DNA of 64,000 nt, taken from Amphiura filiformis. Lineage: Eukaryota > Echinodermata > Ophiuroidea > Amphilepidida > Amphiuridae. The stretch covers positions 32,396,353-32,460,352 of the forward strand of contig NC_092639.1 of assembly GCF_039555335.1 (NCBI RefSeq). Direction: 5' to 3'. Below the pieces are notes generated by a model. It ran no database searches and was not told where the DNA came from. It worked only from the letters and a program-made list of their open reading frames with translations. A program made the translations under genes and the position numbers. Shown piece by piece: positions 2,334 to 48,540 of the stretch. Every line of letters begins with the position of its first letter. Position 1 is the first letter of the stretch.

Positions 2334-3246
2334 GAAACACACTACCAATAACAAGGAGAATAACCCGGCGACAGCTTCAAAAGGACAAGACCATGGATAC
2401 AGCAACAAAATCAACACATCTTCGGAAGAACAAAACAAGGCTCACCATTCTGATCAACCAGAGAATAACAAGTATCAAAATATAGATGAGACTACGCACG
2501 GTGCTAAAAATGAACAAACAAGGGACACGGAAAAGACAAGTTCTGTTATTTACGCGATGCCAGAAAAGAATAAAGCAAAGAAGGGTAATGGAGGTGACAA
2601 TCAGGCACTAACCCATTCAGAGCCAACTGTCAAAATGCGAAACGGTCAAACGGCAAACGGTACGCATAAAAATGAAAAGAGGGATCCTGAGAAGACAATG
2701 TCGGTCGTTTATGCAATGCCGGAGAAGAATAAACCAAAGGAAGAGAATAGAGGTGACAATCAGGAATTATCCCATTCAGAGCCAACTGTCAAAATACGAA
2801 ACGGGGAAACGCAAAGCAGTGCACGTAAAAATGAAAATAGGGATCCTGAAAAAACAATGTCGGTCGTTTATGCAATGCCAGAAAAGAAGAAAGGAGAGGA
2901 AAAGGTAGGCGTTGACAACAGCGCCTTTGTTTATTCTGAGCCAATGGATAATGCCTCGGAAGAATACGAGAGCGTTCAAGCAAACGCTGCATCTTCTGTT
3001 GCAATCACTGATTCTCAAAAGAGTACCGATAATTTGCCAGAAAACAATATGGCGCCTGAATATGCCTACGCTTCAGTATCTGCCGATTCTCACGCCAATG
3101 AAGATACTTCCACTGTTCTTTATGAAGATGTAAAGCAAGCTTCTGCACAAAATGCAGATTCGCGCGTAACTTCTCAACCACGACCGGCTGATACTGATGA
3201 TGGCCAGTCTGGGTGGATTGAAAACTCAATTTATTCAAGCAATTGA
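2334..3246 (+). CDS. Gene A, terminal exon: tyrosine-rich cytoplasmic tail
   Basis: This is the last coding exon (303 codons after one split-codon base) of a membrane protein whose earlier exons lie outside the window. The acceptor is TTTCTGACAG at 2324-2333; upstream in-frame sequence is intron. It enters with one base, as do the tail exons of genes B, C and D. The product is Lys/Glu/Asn-rich and has no Cys-rich or enzyme domain. Three copies of a 53-residue module carry SVIYAMPEK or SVVYAMPEK; their Tyr codons are at 2551, 2710 and 2869, exactly 159 nt apart. Then follow YSEP, EEYESV, EYAYASV, VLYEDV (fits the ITIM pattern) and the end SGWIENSIYSSN. YxxP is a known ligand class for Crk/Nck-type SH2 domains. 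The role as a phosphotyrosine scaffold is inferred from motifs and from paralogy to gene B. Confidence 0.85.
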
Positions 3247-14006: not shown

Positions 14007-14037
<31 letters not shown>

Positions 14038-15001: not shown

Positions 15002-15108
15002 CATCAGAGGTCAATGACCTCAAATTTGACCCGTTTTCCTGTATAATTCGTTTTATGCATGCCATTTATTTTAAACAACAGCCTCGATTTTCACGTTTTT
15101 GGTGTCTA

Positions 15109-16389: not shown

Positions 16390-16409
16390 CTGTAGCTGGC
16401 TGTTACACC

Positions 16410-16455
16410 ATGGTGCTAATTACTTTTTACATTTTTCTGTTCGTAATTTTGCAAG
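16410..16455 (+). CDS. Gene B exon 1: signal peptide
   Basis: ATG at 16410 opens MVLITFYIFLFVILQ, a strongly hydrophobic 15-residue start, followed by donor GTAAGC at 16456. It leaves in phase 1, as expected for signal-peptide exons of modular receptors. The first Cys of exon 2 follows directly, so cleavage probably lies near the junction. Confidence 0.75.
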
Positions 16456-19400
16456 GTAAGCCAGACATTCATAATTAAGATATATCTATAGTTAAGCTTA
16501 TAAGATGCTTTAAAAAATCATAATGAATCTTTATCCAACCTACATGACCAATTATTAGGCCAAAAGATAGTTCGGCTGTCCTCCACAACTTTTCTGGATG
16601 GCAGCGGGCTGGCAGAAAACTTCTCTTTTAGATTATTATGAAATAATTCTCGATCAGGAACAAAATTCATCAAAACGTGTTATAAAAATTAAAAAATTGA
16701 CCTGTCTCTTACACTTCTCCGTAGTCCACTTGCCCATTGTGTATACTCTGGCTTTTATATTTTGCATAAAACTCTGTTTTGTATTAATTTGTGTGCAATT
16801 GATAGATTTTCACATGTGATCTTTTCAGTCACCGTACTCCCTCTGTTTGCCAGCTTCCCAAGTGATTTATTACTCGGGTTTAAAATAAACTGGTAGATTC
16901 CAAAAAAAAGTACACGTGATCGAAAGGCATGGAAGTCATACCCTATGTTGAAGGCGTGGCGGAGAAACTACAAAGAATCTTCCGGAAACATAATATTTCC
17001 ACAGCCATGACAGCCTACCAACACTCTGAAAAGGACAAGAAGGACATTGAGCAGACTATTGATGTGGTATAATTATAATATTCCGTGCAAAGGATGCGAC
17101 AAGTCTTATGTAGGGGAGACTGGAAGACAGTTTGGTACAAGGCTAAAAAAAGGACTCTGGAACTATTGCAGAAAGAAAGTTCACGAGAGCAAACAGAAAA
17201 GAATCCACCTCAGAACAGCACAAATCAGCCATCACAGACCACATAGCACAAGAAAACCATATCATAGAATGGGACGGGGCGACCCTACTCGACAAGGACT
17301 CAAATGCCTTCAGCAGGAGAATTAGCGAAGCAATCTACATTCGCAAAAAGGGGGCCAAAGCAATCAACCGCGACGAAGGTCTCGTATCTCTCGATCACGT
17401 GTACGATCCACTGCTCAAAACAAAAACATCTTCACTTCCGGGAAATGACAACAAGCCGTTTCGCGGGAAAAATGGATTTGTCAAGCTAAAAAGTTTGAAT
17501 TATTTATCTAGAATCCTACAAATGCATCTATTTACTGATATCTTATTAATGTTTCTAGTACTTCATTCAGTATATCATTTCATTAAAATTGCTATTGATA
17601 ATAAAATACACAATTTATCTAGGAAATATCAAAAACATTTCTCACATGTTTAAAGTTTTCTCTTAAGTGCAAAATCTTTTATCTTCCCTATTTGAAATTA
17701 GTCCGACGAGTAGGACCTGTTTTTGTTCTTAGTTACCAACTATAACTTTAACACTTACTGATAAAAACACGAAAGTTTCCAAACATGAAATACATGGTCC
17801 AAAGTTTATTTTAAGATTTAGAGCCATTTTAATTTTGACACTGTGCACAAAACAGGTATAGACCAGGTCTAATTTTAGACTTTGTTAGTAGTAAACAATG
17901 GAAAGAAACGATTAAAGGGATCCCTCCCTAAGTCTAACCTCCATAGCTAGATCAGGTTCAAAGTTAAATCCGGACCTTAGTGACCACTAGAGGTCAAGAA
18001 AAGTCATACAGAAGTTTAAAAAAAATATAAACTGTCTATTTGTCTGATCACAAGGATTTAAAAATGTAGTTTGTTCTATCTATACCTATCGTTACAGAGT
18101 TATTCTACAAAAGCGTCACTTTTGAATAAAGTTATACAGGGGGAAATTATAAATTGCTACAGCTCGATGTCAACTTTCAAATTAAATTTTTTGTAATCTT
18201 GTTGTTGATTGTTTGGGGGGGTTGTTTGTTTATTTTTTGTAGAGTGTTTACTGTAAAATAGAGTGCACCTAACAAAAAACAAAAACATTCACTCAAAGTA
18301 TGTTTCCCAGATTTTAAGAAATTGGGATAATTTTCCTCTACTCTCTAAATGTGAACCAGTGAACCAAAAGACTGAATATTAATGAATTCCAAAAGAGTGA
18401 AATCTCATTCCAAAAGAGTGAATTTCAAACAAATTTCTAAATTTCTAAAAATTTCAGGAATAAATTGTATTTCAAAATATTTCGTTTTCTAGAAAGTAAT
18501 TAGAAATATTGGACAAATGTTTTTACTTGTCTTTTTTACTTTCTGTTCTAGCTTGTCAAGGTAATAGCGAATCCCTTTGCGGATCTTCATGTGACAGGCA
18601 GAAAGAATTTAATGGTTTTTCCAATGATAATACAACACTATACAACAGTGTATGGAATGCAACGAATGACTGTGAACTTGGTATTGTTACTCAGAAAACA
18701 GGTACCATTTGATATTTCTATGAAATTCACCAGTTTGCTGAGAATCATTCATACTACTATAGAGGGGCCGTTCTTGGGAAATTTGATGAGGGAATCCGAA
18801 AATTGTTGTGGGTCTAGACGGGTAATCTGATTTTTAAAACCACGAGGGGATCTGAAGTTTTAGAATATAAATAAGATGGAGAAAAAAAATTCTGACCTTG
18901 GGCGGAAATGCAACAATGTGCTGGTGTAGCTGAGTGTGAATGGCCATTTTACTACTTTCTCGACACCACTGAACTGTAAAACTGTGCAATGTGTCCCATA
19001 GAATATTGTTCTTATGACGCTTTGCTAATGTCCAGGCTGTCAACGAGCTTCTTCTCTGCTGTTGATGGTGTTGGTGATATGGTATGTTGGGATACATATC
19101 AGTGAGGGTATCGGATGTTGAGTGGCCATCTCTGAAACCAAACTGCTGCTTGGAGATCAGCTTCTGATCATTGAAATGTTTCCACATAGCCTCGTTGATC
19201 AACCTCTCCATGATCTTGAAGATTACAGCGAGGAGATAGATTTCCCGGTAGCTGCTCGACGAGTATTTCTCCACTTTCTTGAAGATTGGGATTACATCAG
19301 CAACTTTCCATTGTGCTGGCATGTGTCCACTGTTGAAACATAGCTGGAAGAGCCACGCTAGAGGAGTGACCATTTCAGCAACTGCAATTCTCAGATTAAT

Positions 19401-22400
19401 GCAGGAATCCCATCAGGCCTAGAGTTTTGTTGATATCCAGTTTGGGTATATGTTTTCTTACTATCTTTCTTAAACCAGAAAATCACAATGGAGCATTTGG
19501 TGGTTGTTCCCGACGGAAGGTAGGGGAATTGGTTGACTTGTCACTTTTTACTTTTCCTTAGCAGTGACGAAAGTCTGGCCTTTGGTCTTGGTCCACCACC
19601 AAGATTTCAAACTAGTTTGAAGCTCGTCTGTCATCTTTCTTCTGACCCTAGCTTTGTAAAGAGAGCAGGCCTTCCTGGATATTGTGGTATACTCATTCCT
19701 TGTTCGGTTATTATCAAGGTGAGCTTCGAAAGACTGTAGAGCTTTCTTTATTCTCCATGTGTTTTGTCATTTCTCTTCAGAGCCTTTTCATAGCACTCAT
19801 TCCACCACGCACAGAGCCGGATTTACCATTGGGCCAGATGGGCCCTCAAATTTTGGGCCCCCAAATTGCCCTATGCATGTTACTTTCTATCTGGACCAAA
19901 ATAGGGTAAAATTGCAAAATTGGCCCATTTTATAGCAAAATGCACCTTCATTTTGGGCTAAATAGTCTGAAATTGACAATTGTATCTCGTGCTTCGAGCG
20001 CAAATGTCCTAGTAAAATCTAAGCTCGTCTCCCTCTAAATGTTAATGCTCCCGCAGTAACTGTCGATCTTACCCCTAAACCAAACAACCTGGCCACTTGA
20101 GTGTACATGTCTTCCTCTAGGTGAGTATGGGGCCTCCAAATTTTGGCCTGCCCCATGACCCCTAAGTCCTGACCACGCAAGATGGTCGATGAATTAGGGT
20201 GCAGATTTTTATGGTATGATTCGGTTCATGGCGTCAGCGATCGTGTTGGTGGCTTTACTGCAAGATCATTTTATAGGTCATCTTTGGTGAAAAGGCGGTC
20301 ACAGGGTGCACCAGCCAGCTCATATCTTAAGGCATGCCCGTTGGCTTTCTTGTAGAGAAAGAGTCAATCGTGGAGGAGGATTTTCAGAGAGTGGTGAAGT
20401 TCAACATAGTCTGCACGAGGAAATGCTCTGAACAACCGATGTCGTGGTCGATGGTGATTGGAGAAAACATGTTTGGGGCATCAGTAATTATGAGATCCAG
20501 GCGGTTTCCATGTTGGTGGTTTGGCTTGTCGACAATTTGGGTAAACTCATGAGTACAGTATAATGTTGAAGGCTGCTTTCCCTTTGGTATCAGTGATAAA
20601 CCTTCACTTGCAAAGAATTCGTGATATGAATATTTAGAGTTCAATTTGTAAAGTTCATTGCATCTGCTTCAATCAGCCATGAAGGTAACTTCAAGGTAAC
20701 TTCAGGGAGTTCCACGATCAAAACTCAAAATCCCAAAAGCATACCAGAATGTATCAAAATGATTGGCACCCATCAGTTACTGGCGACTATGGGCAAACCT
20801 GTCAAATCAGAATGCAACATAGGATCCACCTTAGAATGTGTAGATTAAGTTGTAATAAAATGTCATATAACTATACATTCTGGTCCTTGCAATAGGATCC
20901 AATATTACTGAGAAGCAGGCTTTTCAATAAACTTTAATACTGTTGAGTACCACTCTCTGTAGTACAGTAACTCCTACAAGAACTCCAACTCCAATCAAAA
21001 CATGTGGTACTGTATTATTTTTAATGGGGAATTTTAATTCATTCACTCGACAGAATGTTATCTATTTGTGAAACAAACCCCTGGATCTAATGAAACTACT
21101 GCTATGTTACAGTCACCCTGTTACACACCAGTAAAATCAACGCCGTCAACCATTTCATTCGAATACTACAAGCCATATTGGGACACTGATGGATGGATTA
21201 TTGAGATATTTTATACATTATCTTGTGACGACATTTCGAATCAAACCAGCTTGGATCCAATAAAGTATGCTAATAGGAATGGCTGGGAACATTCACTTAC
21301 TCATAATATCCATCACGATGGGTCATATTTTACGGTAAAAAAATTCTTTGTTTGTTGGTATCATGTATAAAATCAAGTACTATATACAGTAATGGACAAA
21401 AGTTTGGAATATATTTATTTTTGCATCAAATACAGTTTTCAATCATTATTAGGAACGGATTTATTGTTCCGGAGTAGTGCTCAGTTGAATTTAATTGAAA
21501 GATACAAATGTCCTTTGATGTTTACATGACACATTTTGTCAATTAAGCAAAGAATTACATGAGGGAGCGCATTACAATGGAAGGGTTCACACAATTGTGC
21601 AAACACTTTTTGGCGGTCTCTTTGTATTACAAAATGAGATTAAAGACACTGGCAAACTTTATTGTTTGAACTGTGGTATGTTCAGATAAGTCTCTTGCTT
21701 GAGAAAACACAACTCAATATTTGGTGTGTCCACCCCTTGCCAGCTCAAGTTCACGTATGCGACGTGGCATTCCCTCGACCAGGTTTACCAAGGTTCCTTG
21801 TGAAATATCTCGCCAGCAAGCAATGAGGGCGTGTCTAAGTTCCTGCAGGGTGATTGGTTGGTTGGCCATATTACCTAACCTGCGAGATACTTCTGCCCAT
21901 AAGCAGTGTACTTCTATTTTATAAGTGCGCGTTTATAAATACGCACGTGACCCATGGGCACGATAAATCAAGACCAGCAAGCATGACCAAATCCTCATGA
22001 ATTGACCACTATACAGAAAATGATAGGAACTCTGCAGATAAAAAATATCATCAACTATTAATTGAATAGCAAAATAATTACACATGGGGGGTTCCGAATT
22101 TGTAATATGTTATCAAAAACAAAATTTTGAAAGTATTTGACGACGGAAAAATATTCAACGACGGAAACCTTTACAATAATTATAATCACAAAGTTGAACA
22201 AACAGTAGTCTCATGTCGTTTCGCCTTTGCATTCAAATGTATAGGAAGACCACCTGCTATGTAGAAGATCACTTCGAGATTTACTGTCTATAAGCTGTTA
22301 TGGCAGCGCGGAGGTGGTCACGTGCGTATTTATAAAAGCGCATTTATAAATATAACCGAAGTACACTGATAAGTTCTCTAAAGGGTTCGTATCCGGGCTC

Positions 22401-25400
22401 AAAGCCGGCTAGTCCAGGTGTTTTGCATTCTCATTTTCAAGGAAGTCCCTCACGCGCCGGGCTCTATGCGCCGTGGTGTTGTCCCCTTGGATCACGAAAT
22501 TGTTCCCGAAGCCTCTTCTTTGCAAACAGACGCATAATTGTATCAAGAACATGCAGGTATTGGTCCTGGTTCATGTGTCCTTTTAGCATGTAGAGGTGCG
22601 ATTTCCACCTATTGTGAATGCTCCCCATATTAGAGGAGGAACCGGGCCTCGTCACTGTAGATCATATTACCCCAGTGGCTTACTGTTAAATTGAAATAAA
22701 AATTATAATGTGTCTCTGTGACCAACGCAAGCGCGCATGCCGATGTATTTACAGAAGTATCGACTTTCTTATTGGTCGTCTTGTGCACAAACCTGCACTA
22801 ACCAGTCTATTGTTCACACGTTTCCTGGTAACAGGCGCGTTCATGGAGCCATTCTGTTCGTAGCCGAGATGTAGGCTTCGTGCAGCCATTGCGGCAAAGT
22901 CTCAGGAGAGATCGGTCTTCCCTTACGGTTGTCTTTCGGGGCCGACCTGACCATGGTCTAGGTGTAGTAGTTCCGGTCTCTCGACGTCTCTTCAAAATTT
23001 TAGAAACGGCACCTTGTGTAATTCCGAAAACGGCACCAATATCTTTCTGTTTGTAGCCGCGATTACGTAAGTTAATGACGCGGGTGTAAGCTAATGCAAC
23101 CTTATGAATCATATCGCTAAAACAACCGCGAAAAGGATACCCGATGGTTTATTAGACTTTTGCAGGGTATGTTAGTTTAATAAGGTACATTGCAATCGTG
23201 TAAAAAAACATTTAGAAAAATATTGATGACGTCTTCCTCAGCAAATGTTACAATATGTCTTTAAATAATAACACAAGAATGGCTCTTAGAATTTTGTTAA
23301 AAACAGTTGAATAGTGTCAACATTAAGGGTTACGATTGTGACAATAAACATTTCGGGTTATTGAACTAAATCCGTTTTTCCATAACTGAATCGTTGTCAC
23401 CTTGCAAAAGCTACCTCCCTCCATATACCATATACCACTACACTTCTCAACGTACATCCATACATCTTGGTGGGTGGGTTTTAGCAACTCGCAAATTTGA
23501 ATATTTTTGTTCCATTTCTTTTCAGACATTCCCAGCAAACACAAAAACGTTTTAAAAACGTTTTAAATAAGTTACATTTTGGCTTTTGGTTTAGGTAAAA
23601 ACGTTTTAATAACATTAAAATGTCGGGTTATATAAAGGCCATGAAAACACATTACAACAATATTTTTAAAATGTGTTCAAAATACTATTGTAAACTATTT
23701 TTGCAAACATTTTTTGCCAAATATTTTGTCAACACTTAAATAACATTATATGAAAATAGTTGCACCCAGCCAACACAGAAATGTTCTTAAAATGTTTTTC
23801 TCAAAACGTTTTAATAACCTTTAAATGCGGGTTATATAAAGGTCATGAAAACATTTTCAAAACGTTATTGCAAATATTTAGGCAAACATTATTCACAAAC
23901 TATTTTTTCAACCGCAAAATAACATTCTGTAAAAATGTTTTTGTAATGTTATTAAAAGGCTTTTATACCCTTTATATAACCCGACATTTAAACGTTTTCT
24001 GTAAAAAAATTTGTGTTTGCTGGGCAGATTTTATCAAAAAATGTTATGAAAACATTTTATACCCTTAATACACCCTTTATACATGTATAACCCGACATTT
24101 AAACGTTTTCTGACAACCTTTTATAACCTTTTGCGAATGATGTCGAAAACGTTTTGTGTTTGCTGGGTTGTTAATGAATAATGCTAAAAGTGACGAAAAT
24201 TGTATGTTTCCATAAGTTCACATACCGACAGTATTTGCCGAAATTTTTGCCCTCCCCGCGCGCTTACAGTCTTTAAAATTTGCCATACCAACACTCTACT
24301 TAAATGACTTACATGCCATAGTTGCTATTACATTATTTTTGCCTTAGAAAAGTATAATGAACCATTTGAATTGCCATGCTTACAAATTGTAATGTTTACA
24401 TAATTACATTACAGGTGCTGATAAGAGCTAACATGTCGGAAAGAGCCGGTAACGAGTCAAAAATGGGAATAGGCGTTAACAACATAGCAGTCAGTGAGTA
24501 GCATACCATTTTCGATCAAGACTTAAAAGAATGCATGTGTATTCAAGTTTAAACATAAATTAATTGGCATATGCTCTCCGCACATCGTCATCATCCCTAT
24601 ATCTTCGTGTCAAAAATTGCAGGGATAGTACAGCGAATCCTCTCGTTTTTCAACAGCTACGCATGGCGATTTTGTTCGAGATAGGCCGAGCGACTCAGGC
24701 TAAGCATACAATTTACACCATATGACTATCATATGAGATACCACAGAGTTTCTATATTCTACACATTATTACGATTTGTGCATGCTCTAGTACCCCATAT
24801 GATGTTGCTATTACAAGAAAAATCGATTTGTTTTCAGGTAAAACCCAGGTTTTGTTTCCAGTACATAACTTTAACTTACACTATAACTTGAAATGCAATA
24901 CACTAATTAGCGGCGACTGCTGTTTGTTGTGTATATATTTTACTGCATTTTGTCTAGGTATAAAGGAATATAGGTATAAAGGAACACGTTTAGCCCATTC
25001 AGTTAAGATCCAGGTGCAAGTCCTATAACACAATTCATATGTAAACTTTCTTTATCTGTGTCAATAATAGAATATTGATTTCAACGGAGTATGGAGCTGT
25101 ATGGAAAAATATTTATAATACAGGGTGTTGACACTGTGCTCCGTGGATTCAGGGGATGATGGGTTATCATTTATTACGTTTGTACATTTTCCATAAAGGT
25201 AATTAATATAATTATTTCTGACAGGTAATATTATTCCGTCGACGCAAATACCGCCCTCACCGATGACATCAAATCTAGCAAGCAGCCAATCACCCTCACC
25301 GATGATATCAAGTAGCCAATCACCAACATCAAAGAATCACTTGCCATCAACAGCACCAGTTACGCCAAGTCCAACAAACGTACTCGGTAAAATAATTTTT

Positions 25401-28400: not shown

Positions 28401-30491
28401 GACGTATCGAATTGCATTTTGAATACGAAGCATGTCTTTCTGATATCAAATAATTTACATTTTTTGAAAATCACGATATAATACAAATTTTGACCTTTCA
28501 TATTGAAGATATGGATTTTTTTTCCCAAAAAGACCTAATTTTTGTTGGTGTTTTGGGTACAAATCCATATCTTCAATACGAAAGGTCAAAATTTTCAATT
28601 GATCGTCGGCTTTTCATCCCACCTACATACACGTTAAGTATAAATCATCAGATTTATAAAGTTTACTTCGAGTACTGTTAAATATCAAAAATATCAATTT
28701 TTAATGATTTGCAAAAAATGTGTATTACATTGCGAATTTCAAAAATCAAAATTATTTGATATCAGAATGACATTCTTCGTATTCAGAATGCAATTCGATA
28801 TGTCTGATGTGCTCTAATGTCCCACAATAAATACTGTCCAAACGTTCATACCCTTCCCTTAAGCTTATCATGAAATTAAGAAAAATATCTGGTCACGCTC
28901 CTTTTAGAATTTTTATTTACCTGATCGTCGGCTTTTGAAGGCAGCAGAATGCAGATTGGCTCACGATAGATGTCGTATTCTATTCAATTTAGAGTGTTTG
29001 GTAGCAAATTTGGTAGCAAATTAGAGCTAACAATTCTGCACACAACCCTGTCAATCAAATTGCCATAACAAGATCAGGTTTGGTGTAGGACGGGTTACAA
29101 AAATGCGGACTTTTTTATTTGAGGTGTTTATATGGGTGCATTATTAGGTATGTCCGTCACAACATCACAAGTACTAATAATATAATCAAATTAAGCCATA
29201 ATGTACGATCTTATGATATCAAGTGTTTTTTTTTCAAACCTTACACCCAAATGGAATCAACCAAATGTGTTGTGTTTGTAGTTCAACAGACATTAAGTCC
29301 CCATAGAACTTGGAGTTAAACGGCCAAAATAGCCACTGAGGTTTCTTTCAATCTAACTTTTCCTGACAGTTTTTACTAAATATTATTTCAGTATTTTGGA
29401 CAAAATCTATTAGGTGGTATAACCCCCCCCCCTGGTGCGACCATAATTAACTTACATTGTCTGTTCATCTTCCAAAAATATTTAAATTCAAGAATTGTTT
29501 GTATTAACGAGAATGTTTCGTTATGTAAGTAACATCCCGTAACAGGTCCAAGAAGTGCATTTTCAATTCTGTCGTTAAAGCTTGTTTAAATCACCTTCTG
29601 AATTATTATCATTATTAATATTATTATTATTTTTATTGTTATAGTAATTTCGCTACCATTAATAGGGGCAGTGATTCTTGCAGTTTTTATATTTGCATTA
29701 ATCGGATACAACAACAGACGGTAAGTTGCAAAATGAGAGTGGATTTTGAACATCTATTTTTTTTACTCTAAAGTCCAGAGGTTTCGGTTAAGCAAGTTTA
29801 TATGCGACACGACCTTGTACCAACTCGTCTGCTTTATCAATATTTTAGAACTTACCGTTTTCTTTACATAAATCTTTTACATGCATCGTTTTTCAGGAAA
29901 AACACCAATAGGGGCTACAAGAGAGAATCCGCCGCTGAGAAAAACGATCAAAAGAGAGATCCCGAAAAGACACTTTCGGTTATATATGCAATGCCAGAGA
30001 AGAATGAAGGGAATGGTACCGACAATCAGGCGTTTATTCATTCAGAAGAACCGACTAGCAAGATTGAAATGCAAAATGATAGCAAGCAGAAAAGGGACCC
30101 TGAAAAGACAATATCGGTCGTTTATGCAATGCCAGAGAAGACGAAAAGAGAAGAAAAGGATGGTGTTGACAACAAGGCCTTTGTTCATTCTGAGTCGACG
30201 GATAATGCCTCGGAAGAATACGAGAGCGTGCAAGCAAACGCTGCATCTTCTGTTTCACTCCATAAATCTCAAAAAAGTACCGATAATTTGTCAGAAAAAG
30301 AGATGGCTCCTGAATATGCCTACGCTTCAGTGTCCGAAGATTCTCGCGTCGATGAAGATGCCGCTGTTCTTTATGAAGATGTAAAACAAGCTTCTGCACA
30401 AAATGCTGATTCGCGAGTCACATCTCAACCACGACCGGCTGATGATGGCCAGTCGGGATGGGTTGAAAACTCAATTTATTCAAGCAAATGA
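16410..30491 (+). CDS. Gene B: type I receptor with MAM-like ectodomain and YxxP/ITIM-like tail
   Basis: Seven exons: 16410-16455, 18552-18701, 21054-21334, 24415-24493, 25225-25386, 29645-29720, 29897-30491. All have GT/AG borders, every junction keeps phase, and together they give 1389 nt (462 residues plus stop). Order: signal peptide 1-16; N-terminal Cys-containing segment 17-65 with NTT and NAT glycosylation sites; MAM-like beta-sandwich about 66-185; Ser/Thr/Pro stalk about 186-239; membrane span about 241-259; tail 264-462. Tail tyrosines: Y295 and Y341 in YAMP, Y373 in YESV, Y407 in YASV, Y424 in VLYEDV, Y459 in the SGWVENSIYSSK end. It is a predicted plasma-membrane receptor signalling through SH2 proteins. 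The ligand is unknown. Introns hold Penelope, LINE, Tc1 and MITE insertions. The exon model is my own inference and needs a transcript. Confidence 0.8.
16715..16868. repeat. Repeat copy 2 (partner at 371-545)
   Basis: Lies in intron 1 of gene B. It matches 371-545 through GTAGTCCACTTGC, GATAGATTTTCACAT and CTTTTCAGTCACC. Confidence 0.65.
16926..17490 (+). mobile_element. Penelope-like element fragment with GIY-YIG domain
   Basis: A broken frame gives MEVIPYVEGVAEKLQRIFR, then after a small frameshift NIPCKGCDKSYVGETGRQFG, and further frames AITDHIAQENH, NAFSRRISEAIYIRK. The CKGC...YVGETGR...R block is the GIY-YIG endonuclease of Penelope-like retroelements. At least three frame changes; dead copy in intron 1 of gene B. 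Confidence 0.8.
17491..18508. other. Intron 1 of gene B, no feature seen
   Basis: AT-rich intron sequence. The short frame at 17399-17653 has no recognisable content. Confidence 0.5.
18552..18701 (+). CDS. Gene B exon 2: N-terminal Cys-containing segment
   Basis: The acceptor TTTCTGTTCTAG precedes a 150-nt phase 1-1 exon; the donor GTACCA is at 18702. It encodes ACQGNSESLCGSSCDRQ, then acidic and Asn-rich residues with NTT and NAT sequons, and a fourth Cys in NDCELG. No known domain is recognised. Confidence 0.7.
18834..20644 (-). mobile_element. Decayed antisense Jockey/I-like LINE
   Basis: Minus-strand pieces in intron 2 of gene B. 18834-19373 gives reverse transcriptase words (PAQWKVADVIPIFKK, KQQFGFRDGHSTSDTLTD). 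20384-20644 gives endonuclease words (HGNRLDLIITDAPNMFSP, DIGCSEHFLV). Both resemble the plus-strand element at 8930-12632. Many disruptions lie between them. Confidence 0.75.
21054..21334 (+). CDS. Gene B exon 3: first part of MAM-like domain
   Basis: Acceptor CACTCGACAG; 281 nt; phase 1 in, phase 0 out (donor GTAAAA at 21335). It starts E-C-Y and carries strands STISFEYY and GWIIEIFYTLSCDD, then NGWEHSLTHNIHHDGSYFT. The pattern W...(x)n...hydrophobic strand, continued by exon 4, resembles the C-terminal half of MAM or related jelly-roll domains. Assignment to MAM is tentative. Confidence 0.7.
21905..22367. mobile_element. MITE nested in the decayed Tc1
   Basis: Terminal inverted repeats of about 48 bp start AGTGTACTTC and end GAAGTACACT, with GCGTTTATAAATACGCACGTGAC mirrored on the other side. 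It splits the Tc1 remnant, so it inserted later. Confidence 0.75.
22807..23112 (-). pseudogene. Tc1-like transposase N-terminus (DNA-binding)
   Basis: 101 codons with a paired-like helix-turn-helix: VINLRNRGYKQKDIGAVFGI, QGAVSKILKRRRETG, then the GRPRKTT linker (an AT-hook-like GRPR). The frame is lost after residue 100. A remnant, not a host gene. Confidence 0.75.
23531..24167. mobile_element. MITE(s), CCCAGCAAACACAAAACG family
   Basis: Starts CCCAGCAAACACAAAAACG and ends GTTTTGTGTTTGCTGGG. Internal ends at 23764 (CCCAGCCAACAC) and about 24018 (GTGTTTGCTGGG) suggest two copies, one inside the other. Located in intron 3 of gene B. Confidence 0.85.
24415..24493 (+). CDS. Gene B exon 4: end of MAM-like domain
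   Basis: Acceptor TTACATTACAG, donor GTGAGT; 79 nt, phase 0 in, 1 out. It encodes VLIRANMSERAGNESKMGIG then VNNIAV. The ending IGVNNIAV resembles the IAIDDI strand that closes MAM domains. It contains one NES sequon. Confidence 0.7.
25225..25386 (+). CDS. Gene B exon 5: Ser/Thr/Pro stalk
   Basis: Acceptor TTTCTGACAG, donor GTAAAA; 162 nt, phase 1-1. It is almost wholly Ser, Thr, Pro, Gln and Asn, with an internal repeat (SSQSPSPMIS / SSQSPTSK). This fits an O-glycosylated membrane-proximal stalk. Confidence 0.75.
25441..25505. repeat. GAT/GAC microsatellite
   Basis: A run of GATGATGAT and GACGAC units in intron 5 of gene B, just after the stalk exon. Its translation (poly-Asp) is not coding. 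Confidence 0.8.
26027..28263 (-). mobile_element. Tc1/mariner transposon with TA target duplication
   Basis: Terminal inverted repeats include ACTACTCCAAGAAATTAGAG and its complement CTCTAATTTCTTGGAGTAGT. TA flanks both ends (26025-26026, 28264-28265). The matching empty site is CACATACCTACGTTGCC at 13270-13286. It contains a broken transposase gene at 26929-28009. Confidence 0.9.
26929..28009 (-). pseudogene. Tc1-like transposase, frameshifted, first catalytic Asp replaced
   Basis: The N-terminal frame 27701-28009 has the helix-turn-helix (VVQMLASGHAQRYAAEQLGV, GVSPSVINRAYHRY) and the RPGQGRRRIT linker. A frame change near 27780 leads to the frame ending at 26929. That part carries RRARFDFARNHQHWQ, LFTNESRF, GGGSVMVWAGI, IMQDNARPHIA, LDWPARSPDLNPIEH and the end ARGGHTHY. 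In active Tc1 relatives the first box is TDESRF; here it is TNESRF, so the first Asp of the DDE triad is Asn. Dead element. Confidence 0.9.
28337..28858. mobile_element. MITE with TTAA target duplication (piggyBac-like)
   Basis: TTAA at 28333-28336 and 28859-28862 flank a 522-bp element beginning GGG and ending CCC, with long inverted arms (for example GTATCGAATTGCATTTTGAA against GAATGCAATTCGATATG). Empty-site copy: GAGTTTTAAGCTTATC at 13346-13361. TTAA sites are typical of piggyBac-type elements. A shorter relative is at 32129-32236. Confidence 0.85.
28986..29644. other. End of intron 5 of gene B, no feature seen
   Basis: AT-rich with a C-run at about 29422-29431. No exon was recognised before the transmembrane exon. 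Confidence 0.5.
29645..29720 (+). CDS. Gene B exon 6: transmembrane segment
   Basis: Acceptor TTTTATTGTTATAG, donor GTAAGT; 76 nt, phase 1 in, 2 out. It encodes ISLPLIGAVILAVFIFALIG, then YNNRR at the membrane exit: one span with a positive cytosolic side. The matching exon in gene D is 45629-45716. Confidence 0.85.
29897..30491 (+). CDS. Gene B exon 7: cytoplasmic tail
   Basis: Acceptor TGCATCGTTTTTCAG at 29882-29896; 595 nt ending in TGA 30489-30491. It holds two YAMP modules (Tyr codons at 29985 and 30123, 46 residues apart) where gene A has three. From EEYESV to the end it is close to gene A in protein and DNA. Confidence 0.85.
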
Positions 30492-32236: not shown

Positions 32237-33224
32237 TTAAACATAAAAGAAAAAGTATGTTTAAGGGAATTCCCCTTTTTCTTTATGTTACCAATATGAA
32301 ACCAGGAAGTGACTCTATTAATTGCAATCAACCTTGTCATTAAAACTAGGCATCGGTTTCTATGATTGTTAGCGGTTATATCTTTAAGAATAAATAATTG
32401 TATCTAGGGTTATATTTTAAAACTAGTGTCTTATTTGTGTGATATAGACTGAAATGCGATAGCTTATTTACTGGAATAATATTATTTGCATTTGTATGCT
32501 GTACTCTTCTCAACTGGATTAATTTCGGTTTTTCAGGACAAATATTGCAACATTCACGGTGAGCTGGTAAGTATCATTCTGTTGTCAATGTATTGTGTTT
32601 GAAGTGTACTGTTGATTCTTTTTAAAGTGTGTGAGATGAAGAATCGTTTTCATTAAAGATTTTGTGATATTGTCAGGAATTGCAACTGTCAGTGTGTCTT
32701 TTATTATGAATCATTGTAAAATGACTCATAATCATCACTTCAAGATAAATATAATTTTTTGATCATCATCATCAAGATCACGACAAATCTCACCATACAA
32801 GATGGGTTGTCAAATCTTTGATTAGGTCTAAGAAAAAAATGATTTGTATTGCTCTTTTCGACCGACCCTAAATTCTGAAAAAATAGAGTCGCATTTTTTT
32901 GTATATTATTTGTTTGTTTGTTTTTTGGGTTTTTTTTTAGAATGTGAGAAGTGAGGGGGGGTATACTGTGTGGGCCGGGTAAAGGGGATGTGCGGCTCAG
33001 TAGGCATGGTAGGATAGAGATCATGTTCTCAAGTCCAGCAAAGGGTTGCAAACAGCGTTTAATTGTTTAAGAGCCCTAATGGGTTACATTATGATTTAGC
33101 TGGTATGTTTTGTACCTTTCTAGGGGCGTAAATCCTTCTTGAAAAGTGGGCGACACAGATTTGTTGAAAGTGGACTTTAGCGCATCATGCAACACGTCGC
33201 AGAGTGTGTGAGGAGCCTATCTAA

Positions 33225-37709: not shown

Positions 37710-39087
37710 GTGCCGACAGTCTAACACAAAAGAAGATGTAGATACTGAAAAAGGTGAAGAGAAAATCAACGAACACAATCATGGGCAAACTCCAGACGTC
37801 CCAACGGGAAACATGGAAAAAGACACCCAACGTGATGAAAACAAAAACCAGCCTAGTCCAGACGACAAAACTATTTCTGAAACGGACACAAAACATGAAA
37901 AAGACAATTCAACTAGCGAAACGGCAAAGCAGAATGGATATGTGCCACCAGAAAGCATGGAGATGACCATCGAACTTGAAGAAGAGAGATTATCGGCGCT
38001 TTACGCAAAGCCTGACAAGAAATTAAAAGCAAATCATAAACCAAACGCAGATGATAATGAAATGAACCTAAACGATCACAATTCATCTAAGAGATCACAT
38101 ATGAACGCAGATGACGCGGAGACAAACGCAGTTGACGCGGAGAGAATACCAATGACTGGCAATCAGTCCGAAGACGAAAGTTCCGATGCAGTGCCTGAAG
38201 GACTATATGCGAAACCAAATAAAAAAGCAGATAAGACAATTGAGGAATATGTGCCGAGTAGTCAAGCTGACGAACCTGAAGATGACTACGCTACAATTCG
38301 TGACACGCAAAAACCCAGTGAACAAAATGCAACAGATGAAAAGTTTGAAAGAGATGCAGATTACGAAGATGTCAATCTTCGGGATGTTGCTCCTCCTCCT
38401 GTATCAAACGATGCGCCTCCGCGTCTTCCAACTGATAGCCTCACTAGACCTCCACGTAAGCCGATTTCGGAAGACGATGATATGGAGCCACCTTATGCGG
38501 AGAGTACCGTATTTGACACGAGAGGTCTACCAGATGAGAAATCAGATGCCAGTAAATCTGCATCTATTGACGAGGACACCGCACCCTATGCGCAAACTCA
38601 AATTGTACCGCTATCGGGGTCTTCGAGAAAACGCTTTAATTCTCATGAAGACGAGGAACCAATAGTAGAGCTGGGAAGCCCTGGTGTAAAAAAACCATCC
38701 ATCCGGATGGCCGGATCAAAGCCTACTGAAATTGATATACCTGATTCGGATTACGAAAAAGTAGTATTGAATACTGAAAATGGCAAAGGAGGCCCTGATC
38801 TGTCAAAGACTACCAAGAGTGGTGACACAAATGACCAGTCGGGATGGGCACAGAACCCTATGTATAGTAGCGTGGATGACCCGACAAGAGATTCAAATTT
38901 TTACATGTCACAGGAGTTGTCTCCAGAAAGAGTTGCTAAGGCAAATCAAGGTAGTGGTCTTGCGACTGAAGAAGACGATTATGAAGAAATACGACGATCA
39001 CTATTTGCAAATACTGATACCATGAACATATCACAGACTGAAACGCATACTATTGACGGTAAAGAAGTACCGGTCACCGAACTTTGA
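37710..39087 (+). CDS. Gene C, terminal exon: long tyrosine-rich tail
   Basis: Acceptor TTTAATTTTTAG; enters with one base, then CRQSNTKEDVDTEKG; 459 codons to TGA 39085-39087. Acidic and low-complexity. Motifs in order: LYAKPDKK and LYAKPNKK (YxxP units related to YAMP in A/B), EEYVPS, DDYATI, ADYEDV, a Pro-rich stretch with RPPRKP (possible SH3 ligand), PPYAES, APYAQT, the conserved block GSPGVKKPSI...PTEIDIP (38674-38742) shared with gene D, SDYEKV (ITIM-like), QSGWAQNPMYSS (true NPxY, shared with A/B), FYMSQE, and DDYEEI (optimal Src-type SH2 ligand; Tyr codon 38980). It joins features of A/B and D in one tail. Inferred role: cytosolic scaffold of a membrane receptor. Confidence 0.8.
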
Positions 39088-39284
39088 GGATTTGTCAATT
39101 TGCTAGCATAATACTTTTCATTATTTGTTCTAATGGTAAAAAACTAAAATAGCTTTTATCTGTCTACGATGAATGATAATCACGTTGTAAACCTTTGGAT
39201 AATACCAAATTTCAGTACAAAGTGCAATTATATGGCTCGATATATGTCCTAGTTACTGAGTTAGATGTATATCTAAGTATATAG

Positions 39285-39414
39285 CGACTGCTCAGTGCCA
39301 GAAGTGGGTAAGTGCAATAGCTACCCCGGGTAGCTACCCTAGTACCCTGTGAACATTGTACTCATCTACACAAGGCAGCTATTGCACTTACCCACTTCTG
39401 GCACTGAACAGTCG
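39285..39414. mobile_element. Short MITE with near-perfect inverted arms
   Basis: TCAGTGCCAGAAGTGGGTAA and its complement TTACCCACTTCTGGCACTGA form arms of about 35 bp around a small loop; CGACTG/CAGTCG extends the pairing outside. Confidence 0.85.
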
Positions 39415-42611: not shown

Positions 42612-42687
42612 ATGGCAGATAGCACCACGGCAACCATGTGTACCTGTAGCTGTCCAGTGCCACAATGTCCATCAATAGGCATGATAG
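42612..42687 (+). CDS. Gene D exon 1: short Cys-containing N-terminus
   Basis: MADSTTATMCTCSCPVPQCP then SIGMI; donor GTAAAT at 42688; phase 1 out. Four Cys in ten residues could pair or be modified. Confidence 0.7.
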
Positions 42688-45600
42688 GTAAATATCACAA
42701 GCATTATCTTTCTACGTATGATATCAGTTATCTATAGGCTATACTATACATACCAATATATTCCTGGAAGTAATGCGGAACGAAGGATTCTATAATTTAA
42801 CAAAACGGTCCTGTTAGTGTTATTGTAGGATTACAAAGGATTTCTTTGAATAAGGCCTGGGATATTTTCTTTCGTTCCTACTTTATGTACTCCCCATAGT
42901 TCAGAACATCCCCGGAGAACATCGACATCCTGTTATTGTATAAAACATTATGAGTACGCGTTATTTCTTTAGGGTCTGGAATGTCCTCTTTCGTTCCTTT
43001 TATTTTATCATTTATCGTTATGTCAATACTCCATGTATTCCAGAAACTTAAACGGAATTAAGGATTGGCTCCATGTATTCCAGAAACTTAAACGGATCTA
43101 AAGATTAACTTGATGGTCCTTTTGTTTGTATTTTAGAAATCGTGCACGGTGGCCGGGCGCGGAAGGGGCTCCGACTCATAATCGGAAGATTGTGAGTTCG
43201 AGCCCCGGCGACGCCATTGTGTTGTCCCTTGAGTACTCGATTACTCCTCTCCACCTAGGTGTATAAATGGGTATCGGCTTTCTTAAATGCTGGCAAGGTA
43301 ACAGGCTCGCTCTGAAGGAGGTGTGACGACCACCCCCACCCCACCCACCCAACAAGTCTAGGCTAATCGCTAACGAAAATGAGATTTTTTTAGCAAGCAA
43401 TCGTTCCCCATTGTGTTTATTTGTTCTTGTGCAGGATGCGTATCCCCATTACCTACTCTACACCAGGCATAAAAGAAACTCGTCAGTTATAGTCATCTTT
43501 GCTGTTCAACAACCTGATAATTTTGGATTATTCTGAAATATACATTTTATTAATTGGACTTTGCTTTCTCATTTGACACCCTGTTCGCAACTTTTCATTT
43601 TGGGGTTTGAGTGTTTGGAGGCGCATATCTTGGTCAATTCTTGCTCGATTTTCACGAACAGGGTGTCACGAACAGGAAAGCAAAGTCGAATTAACAAAAT
43701 GTATATTTCAGAATAATCCAAACTTACCAGGTTGTTGAACAGCAAGGATGACTATACCTGACGAGTTTCTTTTTGTGCCTGGTGTACTTATATTATACTG
43801 GGGAAACGAGTAAGCATCAGTAAGGATCTCCTTCACTTGTGTACCTGTGTAATATTTGTTTGTATGTATTTTGTATACCACGACTGCTAACATTAGACCC
43901 AGTTTTAACCACCGTTTATCAGTAGGAGCTGGTAGCCTAATGGATAAGGCGTCCGTCTAGAGATCGGAAGGTCGTGGGTTCGAGTCCCTTGCTTTTTTTA
44001 TCAAGTTGGGTTGTGTGCCGGTCGGGATTTGTGTTTATTTGTTGTCATGTTTAATATTGTAACACTTTGGGCTGATAAACTGTTCATTCTTTCTTATATA
44101 TTCTGTTTCGTCTTGTAGCGAGCAACCGTTCCCCATTGTGTTCATTTGTTCTTAGCAGGATGCGTATCCCCATTACCTACTCTACTTATAATACTGAAAA
44201 GAGTAAGCATCAGTAATGATCTCCTTCACTTGTGTACTTGCGTAATATTTGTTTGTGTGTATTGTATACCACGATTGCTAACATTAGACCCAGTTTTAAC
44301 CACCGTTTATCAGTGCATGGAAGAAAGAGATAAGAAAGAACCACAACGAACGCATTCACTTTGTTCACTCCCTTTACCGACATTTAATTCACATTGTTAT
44401 TCATGAGGATTTACTTTGATCAATATCCATTAGTTTGGTATTGTACTCCATGCATTTGCATGTCTCCTGGAGCGTGTCTAGATGATGATTTGAACTAATG
44501 ACCTTCCGTTCAAGCACACTGCATGATTTTCTCTGGTGACATGATCATCGGTCATTTTCGGTAATTTCCGTGCGTGATCGAATCGATTCGGCGACACCGT
44601 AATTTTCCGAAAAAACACTCTTGTTGCATGCTGGGAAGGTTTGACTTGACAACAAGATGGCGCCCTTCATCTCTATCTTCCATTTTGCCCAATTTTCCCG
44701 AACTTTGATGACTTTTTTCTCAGAGTTGGCAGTCTTTGGCACTGAAACGAGTTAGCTAGTTACGATTATACACATGTAAGCTATTAAATTCATCAGGTTT
44801 CATGTACCGGACTCAACCAGAACATTTTGAATTATTTAAGAACATTACATATATTTTTTCATCGAAAATTTACGCAATGAAGTCACCAAAATCTTACCTT
44901 ATTTGATCAAGATGAAACTCGGCAAAAAACGGCCGATTTTGATGAACTTTTCGATGTATTAAAGTACATTTTCTACACAACACGATCGAGAAAACAGTTT
45001 GACTGTAAACCCCGAAATAAAGCTACTATGCATGCTCAAAGCATCAGGGAAATTCCAGAATCTTACTTCCGGTAGCGTCTGTTGTTCGTGGATGGGTTTA
45101 TTATATATTTTTTTTCAGTAATGATATCGCCAAGCAGCGATCGCGGTAAATGGACTATGCATGAAAGGAAGTACCATTGATAGCGTCAATAGATAAGCGG
45201 ATTAAAACTTGGCCGATCGAAGTCGTTGTGGTTCCTTCTTATCTCTTTCTTCCATGATCAGTGGGAGCTGGTAGCCTAATGGATAAGGCGTCCGTCTAGA
45301 GATCGGAAGGTCGTGGGTTCGATTCCCATGCCAGCACATTCCCTTGCTTTTTTGTCAAGTTGGGTGGTACCGGTCGGGATTTGTATTTATATATTTGTTG
45401 TCATGTTTAAATGTAACACTTTAGGTTGGTAAACTGTTCGTTCTTTCTGATTATTACGTAGTCAATTCCCCGGGGTCAATTCACCACAAACAGGTGAATG
45501 GGAGATGTCCCCTAACTTTTTCTAATGGCCTTGTCCACTAAATATTGGTTATCCTTAATCTGTGGTCAGTGGTCTTTGTAGACTATCGTCCATTATTAAT

Positions 45601-48527
45601 CATTATTTCATGATTTCTTCAAATATAGGACCTGGTGGAGCCGCAGCTCTTACGGCTGTCATTGTAATATTCATCTGGGTAGTGGTTTACGTAGCAAAAC
45701 GCTTGCGCAAGAGAAGGTAAGAAAGCCTACACCATATGCACTCAATGCATTATACTTTTTGAATACTTAATGTTTGTAGCTTTTACCTCGACGCTAACAT
45801 TCGAACAAGATTCGTCAAAAGACATAAGAACTCTCTTTGAAAAAGATTGTTCGTGGTATGTTACAAAGGACCTTGGCTATATATGGGTATATATGACCTT
45901 GACCAATACAAAAAAAATGTAGATATTTATATAGCGCTTTATGCCGTAAACGGCCTCAAAGCGCTTTACATTTATTCCCGCCGTCATTGGAATATGTCAA
46001 AACCACGCTTGCTGCCTGCAAATGGCGCAGAGTTCATCAGTACAACGACTGTGACTACCCCTAACAGCTTCCCATTGCACCTGGGCGAGCGAAGCAAAGC
46101 GACTTGCCCAAGTGCACAACACGGTGGTGAGACAGGGACTCGAACCCACGCACGTCGAACAAGCTCTTAGATTATGAGTCCAATGCCGTCATGATGCATG
46201 ATTTAAATCATTTTACTTTAAAATGACCGTCAGAAACATGTTTTTGTCCTGTCATGTGTTAGTAATAATATGCCCCTGTTCTGTCTGTTTTGGATGGACG
46301 ATTGGCATACAGGTATCCATATTGTCATTATTCAAAAAGAAAATCTCTCTCGTGTTTTATCTGGCTTGTAATTAAATGGTACAGTGATAAAAATTTTGAG
46401 ACTTTACGTATAATAAATTAAGTGGCCATTTTGAGTGACGAGTCGGCCGGGCGAGTCGGCTGCGTAAATTGCGTCAAATATGCACCACGCGCGCGCAAAA
46501 GCACATCCCGTATCACTATAATATTACTTAACAGTCTCTGCTTTTTTGTAATTGTATACAGGCAGCATGATCATCATACTCGGCCTAATTATGAAACGGT
46601 TGTCGCGGAAATGGAACGACAGAGTAAGCGATTCACGACCAGTTTAAGCAACACACAATTAACACGTAACAGCAATTCCAGTACGGCGTTAAATTTCTTT
46701 GTTCAAGAACAGGGAAGTAATATGACCGAAACGCCCAACACTGAGATACCGAAACGAGCATCCAATAATACACGAAGGTCGACAGAAACGCAAGCTTGTG
46801 AAAGTGATAGACCCTCCCATTCTATGAATACGCGAGCTACATCAGAAACATCATCTGTAATATGTACACAACCGGAAAAGAAATCAAAGAGAAAGCATTC
46901 ATATGAGAAATGTGAGCTTAACCCGATTATCGAAAAGGGAATATCGGTGGAAGTTACGTCAAATGCGCATGCGTCACCGGATTTAAGTTGCCAAACCAAA
47001 GAGGTAATATATGCGATGCCGGAGAAGAAACAAAGCGATTTTACAGGAAACGAGGAAGACAGTGATGAGCATCCGATTACCAGAAATGACAAGGTTGTAT
47101 CTATTGAGATACAAAACTCCACAAATCCTAGAGCAAACTCCTTACATTATGCCAGTAGTAATGTTCATAAAAAGAAAGCGCCCTCTATTATAGAAAGCAT
47201 TGAAAGAGGATTCGATAAAGTTCAAGCCGTTGTTTCCCCCCAGCCTCAAAAGAAGTCAACCAGTGTTAGAGATACTCGTGGTCATAGTGATTCTGCGAAC
47301 AAAAGTCCCGACGTCAACAAGAGCCTATCATTGGATGGTTATGCATTACGTAATAATAGACCATCCTCAGACAACCAGAAATTCGCACGAGGGGCATCAT
47401 CAGAATACGAAGATGTAGCAATAGGTGAACAGCAACACTTGGATACCAACGGACCCCGGTTTTCTCCTGAAGTAAGCAATCGTTCATCTTCACCATGCGA
47501 CCACACTAAAGCTACCAGTGGCTTCAAACGATACCGCCCCGACCAAATCGATAACGACGAAGGCCCTCTTTACACTCAATCAATGAAGAAAGTATCTGGG
47601 TGTAAAACGCTCAATACGTTAAGCAGCGAGGAGCAAGAAAATGACAAAGCAGTGCAAGATGGCGGTTTTCTTATACCAGAAGGAGCCAAGTGTGAGGACA
47701 ACAAGAGTACATCAGGCTATGAAGAAATCCAACTTGGTGGTATTTCTCCACCACAACGTGAGGAGAAGCCGCGAATGCCACCAGGCGCCTTTGACAACCC
47801 GTTACTTGTGGTAATCATGGAAAAGCGAGCACCTGATATGATGGAAAACTCGCTGCATGGAGAAAAGATTGACCATACACATGAAGACGTCACCGGAAGA
47901 CAAGAAGATGAATTGCACTATGTAGCAGAGGATTGTTCGGTGTATGCAAGATCGACAAAAAGTATCAGCAAAGAAGCTGTGTCTTTTGGTGGTGCTCATG
48001 ACTGCACAACGGCGATGGACACTGATCAGACATCGGGAACATCTGGATACGAAGACATTCGACTCGGCGAAATTAGTATGCCATCTCGACCTCAGAATGA
48101 AACACAGTCGAGTTCTACTGATACCAACCTTCCTAGTGACACTAGCGACATCTCACAACTAAAAGCAAGGACCACCGAATCGTCAAAGGGACGCAACCCA
48201 AGTTTATCACAATCCACAGGGATGAAGTCTGCAACGTGTGAAGATGAAAGCAGCGGACCAGCTTACGCTATTTCAGCCAAGTTTAGTTTACCTATCAAGT
48301 TACCTGAGCGTTCGCAATCGTTTACGAGACCAAAAAGTGGGCCATATGATAAGGAGCTACGACCCAAACGAAAGACTGTCCGCGATGTTGCACATCGCGA
48401 CAAGAGCGGCAAAGAAGATGTAATTATGGTGACTCTTGGTACACCTGGAATTAAGAAACCATCAATCCAGAGGCCTGGAGAGTGTCCCACTTCCATTGAT
48501 ATCCCAACAAAATCGTTTAAGAAGTAG
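42612..48527 (+). CDS. Gene D: transmembrane adaptor-like protein with 654-residue tyrosine tail
   Basis: Three exons, 42612-42687, 45629-45716 and 46562-48527, with all phases and GT/AG borders consistent, encode 709 residues. The ATG sits in AATATGG context and an in-frame TAA lies 63 nt upstream. There is no signal peptide. Residues 1-29 hold Cys 10, 12, 14 and 19; the span is about 30-48, followed by KRLRKRR, so N-out/C-in topology is predicted. Tail sites: Y65 (YETV), Y205 (VIYAMPEK), Y337 (SEYEDV), Y441 (SGYEEI), Y551 (SGYEDI), several other Tyr, and the block GTPGIKKPSI...PTSIDIP near the C-terminus. One module reads SSVICTQPEKK, where Cys replaces the YAMP Tyr. The layout (tiny ectodomain, one span, long Tyr tail) resembles LAT/PAG-type adaptors, but there is no detectable sequence relation to them. 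Function is inferred. Confidence 0.8.
43141..43400 (+). mobile_element. tRNA-headed SINE
   Basis: GGGGCTCCGACTCATAATCGG followed by GTGAGTTCGAGCCCC is a tRNA-like B-box region with a CAT anticodon-like loop. The downstream body (GGTGTATAAATGGGTATCGG) and T-run fit a SINE in intron 1 of gene D. Confidence 0.65.
43461..43784. mobile_element. Foldback MITE with TA target duplication
   Basis: Arms of about 110 bp: CACCAGGCATAAAAGAAACT against its near-complement ending GTGCCTGGTG, with GAATAATCC/GGATTATTC inside. TA flanks both sides. The empty site is at 44176-44190 (CTACTCTACTTATAA). Confidence 0.85.
43921..44060 (+). mobile_element. tRNA-Arg-like SINE, copy 1
   Basis: GTAGCCTAATGGATAAGGCG and GGTCGTGGGTTCGAGTCCC give tRNA-Arg-like A and B boxes. 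The body CAAGTTGGGT...GGTCGGGATTTGT...TTGTTGTCATGTTTAA is shared with the second copy. Confidence 0.75.
44316..45256. mobile_element. DNA transposon (non-autonomous) with 7-bp target duplication
   Basis: Inverted ends CATGGAAGAAAGAGATAAGA and its complement TCTTATCTCTTTCTTCCATG. ATCAGTG is repeated at 44309-44315 and 45257-45263. 941 bp, no transposase frame. The uninterrupted form is in copy 1 near 43914-43922. Confidence 0.85.
45263..45420 (+). mobile_element. tRNA-Arg-like SINE, copy 2
   Basis: Same head and body as 43921-44060, with a fuller 3' end of the head (CCCATGCCAGCAC). GCTGG can pair with CCAGC but is out of register with a canonical seven-base acceptor stem, so it is not called a tRNA gene. 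Confidence 0.75.
45629..45716 (+). CDS. Gene D exon 2: transmembrane segment
   Basis: Acceptor TTCAAATATAG, donor GTAAGA; 88 nt; phase 1 in, 2 out as in gene B exon 6. It encodes PGGAAALTAVIVIFIWVVVY then VAKRLRKR. Confidence 0.85.
45905..46195 (-). mobile_element. Antisense tRNA-headed SINE
   Basis: On the minus strand, GGACTCATAATCTAAGAGC and GTGGGTTCGAGTCCCTG form the tRNA-like head. The other end has TAAAGCGCTTTGAGGCCG and ATAAAGCGCTATATAAAT, a common 3' end of animal SINE/LINE pairs, then a T-run. Located in intron 2 of gene D. Confidence 0.75.
46562..48527 (+). CDS. Gene D exon 3: cytoplasmic tail
   Basis: Acceptor TTTTGTAATTGTATACAG (46544-46561); one base completes Arg 55; stop TAG 48525-48527. 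In-frame sequence before 46562 is intron. Two related SGYE(E/D)I(Q/R)LG(G/E)IS units (Tyr codons 47718 and 48048) show internal duplication. Confidence 0.85.
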
Positions 48528-48540
48528 CTGGATCAATCAT

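Follow-up and report, generated by a model that had tools for sequence, protein, structure and literature searches.

We analysed a window of 64,000 nucleotides from the echinoderm Amphiura filiformis (RefSeq assembly GCF_039555335.1, contig NC_092639.1, positions 32,396,353 to 32,460,352), the whole of which is meant by the window below, and focused on a cluster of four long tyrosine-bearing tail exons, here called A, B, C and D (Table 1). These four coding exons on the plus strand are genuine. At the stop-triplet rate of the window (0.0546), frames of this length would stay open by chance with probabilities of 4e-8 (A), 2e-5 (B), 7e-12 (C) and 1e-16 (D), and in the five alternative frames this DNA has 1 to 61 stops. 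The acceptors ahead of the tails score 6.8, 4.8, 3.8 and 5.6 bits from A to D, and every reading frame starts one base past its acceptor. The first-pass annotation of this DNA had described four long tail exons on one strand, each with one split-codon base, and its coordinates, open frames and acceptors all check out. The tails carry 11, 8, 12 and 14 tyrosines, respectively.

Table 1. Exons and repeats assigned to genes A to D (positions within the window).
Feature	Position	Strand	Description
A tail exon	2334..3246	+	Terminal exon, 303 codons; 3 YAMP modules, YEDV; C-terminal end QSGWIENSIYSSN
Tandem repeat in A tail	2549..2892	+	In-frame, 159-bp (53-codon) unit carrying the YAMP module
B exon 1, signal peptide	16410..16455	+	MVLITFYIFLFVILQ; start context ACACCATGG; phase 1 donor (6.9 bits)
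B exon 2	18552..18701	+	Phase 1-1; ectodomain part 1, predicted
B exon 3	21054..21334	+	Phase 1-0; ectodomain part 2, predicted
B exon 4	24415..24493	+	Phase 0-1; ectodomain part 3, predicted, weaker
B exon 5	25225..25386	+	Phase 1-1; stalk, predicted; 58% serine/threonine/proline over 53 residues
B exon 6, transmembrane	29645..29720	+	Phase 1 in / 2 out; donor 6.4 bits
B exon 7, tail	29897..30491	+	197 codons; 2 YAMP modules; C-terminal end QSGWVENSIYSSK
C candidate transmembrane exon	32448..32558	+	Marginal; LKCDSLFTGIILFAFVCCTLLNWINFGFSGQILQHS; phase 2 in / 2 out
C tail exon	37710..39087	+	458 codons; 2 YAKP, YEDV, YEEI; QSGWAQNPMYSSV; proline-rich stretch; C-terminus VTEL
D candidate first exon	42612..42687	+	MADSTTATMCTCSCPVPQCPSIGMI; phase 1 donor; weak, chain score at noise level
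D transmembrane exon	45629..45716	+	Phase 1 in / 2 out; donor 6.3 bits; basic end RLRKRR
D tail exon	46562..48527	+	654 codons; 1 YAMP, YEDV, YEEI, YEDI; without the YSS end motif

The tails have a set of tyrosine motifs in common. A search of all six reading frames of the window found the pattern Y[AS]xP[EDN]K eight times, always inside the tails (three in A, two in B, two in C and one in D). We then tested motif counts against 2000 shuffles per tail, with P values uncorrected for 32 tests. Motifs of the form YE[DEKS][VI] exceeded expectation in all four tails (P 0.001 or less), as did YAxP in A, B and C (P 0.0015 or less; P 0.06 in D). The broader pattern YxxP, counted four, two, three and one times from A to D, was above chance in A (P 0.0025) and B (P 0.033) and not clearly so in C (P 0.069) or D (P 0.62). 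The YAMP modules are spaced at 53 codons in A, which has three, and at 46 codons in B, which has two. These results uphold the common YAMP/YAKP modules of the first-pass annotation, together with its YEDV sites, which are present in 4/4 tails, whereas YEEI was found in C and D only. The shared end motif that it had also proposed, QSGWxxNx[IM]YSS, is present in A, B and C but missing from D. Sites of the SHP/SHIP type, likewise part of that proposal, were not above chance in three of the tails: sites resembling an immunoreceptor tyrosine-based inhibitory motif (ITIM) numbered one each in A, B and C against 0.26-0.39 expected (P 0.23-0.34), and D alone exceeded chance with three such sites against 0.65 expected (P 0.026, uncorrected).

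The kinship of the tails was scored against 500 shuffles per pair. The similarity of A and B (639, against a null mean of 63) was reached by none of the shuffles, and the same was true of C and D (158), A and D (120) and B and D (86). The tails of A and B could be aligned over 195 codons, with 32, 25 and 57 changes at the first, second and third codon positions. Nonsynonymous (dN) and synonymous (dS) divergence were estimated at 0.16 and 0.52 by NG86 (ratio 0.31), 0.18 and 0.39 by YN00 (ratio 0.46) and 0.16 and 0.48 by LWL85 (ratio 0.33). Because of this range of dN/dS (0.31-0.46) and the excess of third-position changes, we conclude that both tails have been kept as protein. Judged by their sequences, A and B are thus clear paralogues on which purifying selection has acted. 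The relationship of D to each of the other three tails is significant, and C is tied to A and B mainly through common motifs. The stretch KKPSI...IDIP is common to C and D, with D stopping just past it, and the module YE[DE][IV]xLxx[IV] is found once in C and twice in D. The 3' flanks of A and B also resemble each other, with a score of 137 where the null lies at about 20-27; those of C and D, when compared, do not. The tandem expansion suggested earlier is thus firm for A and B, in tail plus 3' flank, while C and D are distant.

We scanned the DNA upstream of each tail for exons that encode a hydrophobic span and have an outgoing phase of 2. The transmembrane exons of B and D, which have identical phases, scored higher than anything in the shuffled sequences (0/100 shuffles reach either one). 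The candidate for C has a fitting outgoing phase and a donor of 5.6 bits; its acceptor is weak (0.6) and its incoming phase is unlike that of B and D. When relaxed GT donors and GC donors were allowed, this candidate for C stayed marginal, and another at 35755-35932 was discarded for its poor donor.

Upstream of tail B, we obtained a model of seven exons with compatible phases throughout and an open product of 462 residues. This product is predicted to be a type I membrane protein with a signal peptide, a cysteine-bearing ectodomain, a mucin-like stalk rich in serine, threonine and proline, a membrane span and the tail. Exon 1, which has a strong start context, scored highest among the 14 candidates for an initial exon that were listed in the region of B, with a score that rewards hydrophobicity. 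The stalk exon has a weak donor (-0.6 bits), and a later donor at 25477 scores 1.2. When transposon sequence was masked, the best chain of exons (12.7) was a variant that has exons 1-2 in common with this model but exon 3 only in part, and the model with a longer stalk exon reached 11.8; these scores were beaten by 1 of 40 shuffles (18.3; next 9.6) and the reverse complement gave 3.7.

The predicted ectodomain of B had no match in Pfam. Sequence searches of the PDB with this ectodomain returned seven matches each, the best being STK33 (E 0.015 and 0.01), for which the best single stretch had an E-value of 2.1 and 1; these are cytoplasmic kinases, and we judged the matches to be due to chance. 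Exons 2-4 have the look of a MAM-type ectodomain, an assignment that we do not make, with no Pfam match and no MAM chain among the PDB sequence matches. The structure prediction of exon 3 alone had a mean predicted local distance difference test (pLDDT) score of 45.9. An ectodomain of this secreted type would be compatible with a role in recognition. We also considered the region 14757-14966 (+), a phase 1-1 exon candidate with three cysteines; it lies upstream of the start of B, is dissimilar to the B ectodomain (P 0.27-0.53) and is possibly the remnant of another gene.

In the 6.5 kb upstream of D no first-exon chain scored more than 1.1, and the first exons that were listed there are short; the candidate in Table 1 would add an N-terminus of 25 residues with four cysteines. 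Because no ectodomain exons turned up in these 6.5 kb, the sequence suggests that D encodes a protein almost without ectodomain, though exons may be missed. This apparently tiny ectodomain hints that one member may be an adaptor and not a receptor. The tail of C contains NPMYSSV, PPP/PPR stretches and a C-terminal VTEL, and its first residue is a cysteine; the tails of A, B and D do not start with cysteine, and the transmembrane exons of B and D contain none. A strong-looking exon upstream of C (36771-36859) is dissimilar to the B ectodomain and was set aside; splice scores as strong as these were also found for an exon in the transposon-rich part of B.

We then searched for relatives of the family. 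Using Pfam with a permissive threshold (E 10), the four tails gave no match to the PAG family (PF15347), and the sole match was an unrelated one for A (E 0.3), in keeping with the first-pass annotation, which recognised no named family in them. As a positive control, the same PAG model matched PAG1 at E 2.5e-226. In direct comparisons of the tails with this PAG1 sequence (500 shuffles), P was 0.21 for A, 0.32 for B, 0.046 for C and 0.81 for D, so that C had the lowest value of the four, a nominal one uncorrected for four tests. Pfam scans of the raw plus-strand frames of 14001-29002, 30489-37690 and 39088-46589, which are insensitive to short exons, returned one sub-threshold match upstream of D (E 0.35). 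Nothing was found by Pfam (E 0.1) in 52600-61601 on both strands or on the minus strand of 39090-48592; the rest of the window was scanned as a few single open reading frames only. Sequence searches of the PDB with tails A, C and D yielded no match up to E 1, and none of three pattern matches to the tail of B in viral contigs was a relative. Finally, among the papers listed by searches of the open literature, none seemed from its title and abstract opening to describe this tyrosine-tail family.

Several known systems nevertheless resemble these genes. The ectodomain of DCBLD proteins consists of CUB, LCCL and discoidin domains, none of which had a Pfam match in the predicted B ectodomain or in the raw frames upstream of B, C and D. 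According to PMC8015000, DCBLD1 and DCBLD2 are type I membrane proteins with seven to eight YXXP sites in the tail, which bind CRK/CRKL once phosphorylated by FYN/ABL. A membrane tail with multiple YxxP sites is the possible likeness, as such sites exceed chance in A and B only; here they are fewer, mixed with YE[DE][VI] and YSS sites, and belong to a tandem family. The transmembrane adaptor proteins (TRAPs) have, as excerpted from PMC4861716, an ectodomain of few residues, a palmitoylation cysteine next to the membrane and a tyrosine-rich tail, to which PAG adds proline-rich stretches and VTRL as a C-terminal PDZ ligand; SCIMP carries WYSSV (PMC5253658, in excerpt). Our genes resemble PAG1/Cbp and other TRAPs (LAT, NTAL, LIME, SCIMP) in the long tail with 8-14 tyrosines, in the YSSV, proline-rich stretch and PDZ-type C-terminus of C, and possibly in the tiny ectodomain of D. 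They differ in leaving the PAG model unmatched, in the signal peptide and ectodomain predicted for B and in the YAxP modules. Because the PAG model finds PAG1 but no tail, and the direct comparison is at best nominal, the tails may work like PAG without being members of its family. Two further systems were compared by description only. The Alr allorecognition genes of Hydractinia are likewise clustered invertebrate membrane genes with signalling tails, but have immunoglobulin-like ectodomains. BbLcLRR of amphioxus, as described in the abstract of PMC8211107, is also an invertebrate membrane protein with tail-tyrosine signalling, but is a leucine-rich repeat receptor with ITIM-type sites.

Taken together, we favour with moderate confidence the view that these genes form a tandem family, whose members are phosphotyrosine scaffolds spanning the membrane once. 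From the sequence, a function for the family is probable and at least one member is likely a receptor; the family is perhaps lineage-specific. On our best reading, the mode of action of these scaffolds would resemble that of DCBLD or PAG/LAT-type proteins, although no homology to PAG1 could be detected. Upon clustering, Src/Abl-type kinases would phosphorylate the tail, YA[MK]P sites would recruit Crk-type SH2 adaptors and YE[DE][VI] sites would bind Nck- or Src-family SH2 domains. The end motif QSGWxxNx[IM]YSS(V) of A, B and C may attract a third partner, either a Csk-like SH2 domain or, through NPMY in C, a PTB/endocytic adaptor. In-frame duplication of the YAMP module could tune docking strength in evolution (three modules in A, two in B). 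That YE[DE][VI] is a Nck/Src ligand class and YSSV a Csk ligand class is general motif knowledge.

A number of results weigh against this scheme. All gene models are predictions from the DNA sequence, and the SH2 assignments of the tail sites, except YXXP-CRK, are ones that we take to follow from general motif classes. The overall similarity of C to A (94, reached by 37/500 shuffles) and to B (83, 8/500) is weak. The best shuffles yielded transmembrane-like exons scoring nearly as high as the real ones (for B, 11.7 in the shuffles and 11.9 in the real DNA; for D, 11.2 and 11.3), the score of the C candidate was matched by 7/100 shuffles, and no transmembrane exon was found for A within the 2.3 kb of upstream DNA in the window, even with relaxed GT and GC donors. 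Because the transmembrane exon is convincing for two genes, marginal for C and not found for A within the window, the earlier description of four membrane genes is only partly supported. In gene B, the best masked chain departs from the seven-exon model within exon 3 and onward, and exons in transposon sequence won the unmasked search; because of these chain results, we regard exons 1-3 of the model as fairly supported, and exon 4 and the stalk donor as weakly so. Finally, sequons in the predicted outside part of B are not enriched (6 against 4.5 by chance, P 0.28).

Alternatively, it is possible, though we doubt it, that C and D, unlike B, are adaptors of the TRAP kind, with few extracellular residues, one span and a long tyrosine tail, and that C is PAG-like. 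The short first exons and low chain scores upstream of D would fit the TRAP definition, and the tail of C has counterparts to the VTRL of PAG and the WYSSV of SCIMP in addition to its proline-rich stretches and initial cysteine. However, the PAG model recovers none of the four tails, the nominal similarity of C to PAG1 is one of four tests and the transmembrane exon of C is marginal. Rather unlikely, in our estimation, is a combined arrangement in which one conserved phosphotyrosine tail sits on different membrane front ends within one cluster: B would be a ligand-binding receptor, D an adaptor without ectodomain and C a Csk/PDZ scaffold of the PAG-like kind. This arrangement fits A and B because their tail exons and 3' flanks are alike, whereas the 2.3 kb upstream of A have no similarity to the transmembrane exon or last intron of B and are at most marginally similar to the 1.9 kb upstream of B (31, where the highest of 20 shuffles gave 30). 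If true, activating and restraining parts of one invertebrate signalling circuit would arise by tail duplication at one locus, in convergence with vertebrate TRAPs.

The remaining explanations are less probable. Tail C could be an alternative terminal exon on the phase-2 transmembrane exon of B, giving one receptor with two tails. The transmembrane exon of B ends in phase 2, the tail of C begins in phase 2 and between 30.5 and 37.7 kb there is only a marginal transmembrane candidate; yet a gap of 8 kb separates the two and the exon at 32448-32558 could be C's own. We consider this arrangement improbable. We think it equally improbable that A or C is a decaying duplicate with a tail that survives but no longer has a function: no transmembrane exon was found for A in the window and that of C is marginal, transposon remnants occur at several places and D stops where C continues, but all four frames are open and the dN/dS ratio of A and B is low (0.31-0.46). 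Least probable of all are inhibitory immune-type receptors acting through ITIM sites and SHP/SHIP phosphatases, for which the three sites of D and the amphioxus precedent speak, since ITIM-like counts do not exceed chance in A, B and C, and enrichment was seen for YAxP and acidic YE[DE][VI] sites instead.

It is in vertebrate immunity that phosphotyrosine receptors and membrane adaptors have been studied best. A tandem family of such scaffolds in an invertebrate, whose tail escapes Pfam, combines sites of the Crk, Nck/Src and Csk types and varies its site number by module duplication, would show how these proteins originate and diversify. The tail family would also be a concrete target for functional tests.

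Transposons and repeats are found around these genes, and the LINE and Tc1-type remnants, like the intron structure, give the window the look of animal DNA. Between tails A and B lie a LINE-type (long interspersed nuclear element) sequence at 6932-8833 (-), with an open frame of 634 codons and a reverse transcriptase domain, and a frame-broken LINE-type endonuclease/reverse transcriptase element at 9633-12576 (+). The predicted introns of B contain an antisense LINE-type remnant at 18834-19412 (-) and a Tc1-type transposase frame (DDE_3, HTH_Tnp_Tc3_2) at 26932-27939 (-), with a remnant near 21717-21932. Near D, Rfam identified two tRNA-like sequences, at 43926-43995 and 45267-45336 (+), the second of which is called tRNA-Ser by ARAGORN; their translated flanks are similar and the pair is probably a tRNA-derived short repeat. 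Further downstream, a repeated block at 50877-52434 adjoins long ATC repeats and is identical over 77 codons of an open reading frame. Finally, 61607-63888 is an unusual satellite: a palindromic unit of 21-22 bp, TATTGCGAATATTCGCAATAA, forms arrays in which it alternates with a 35 bp unit.

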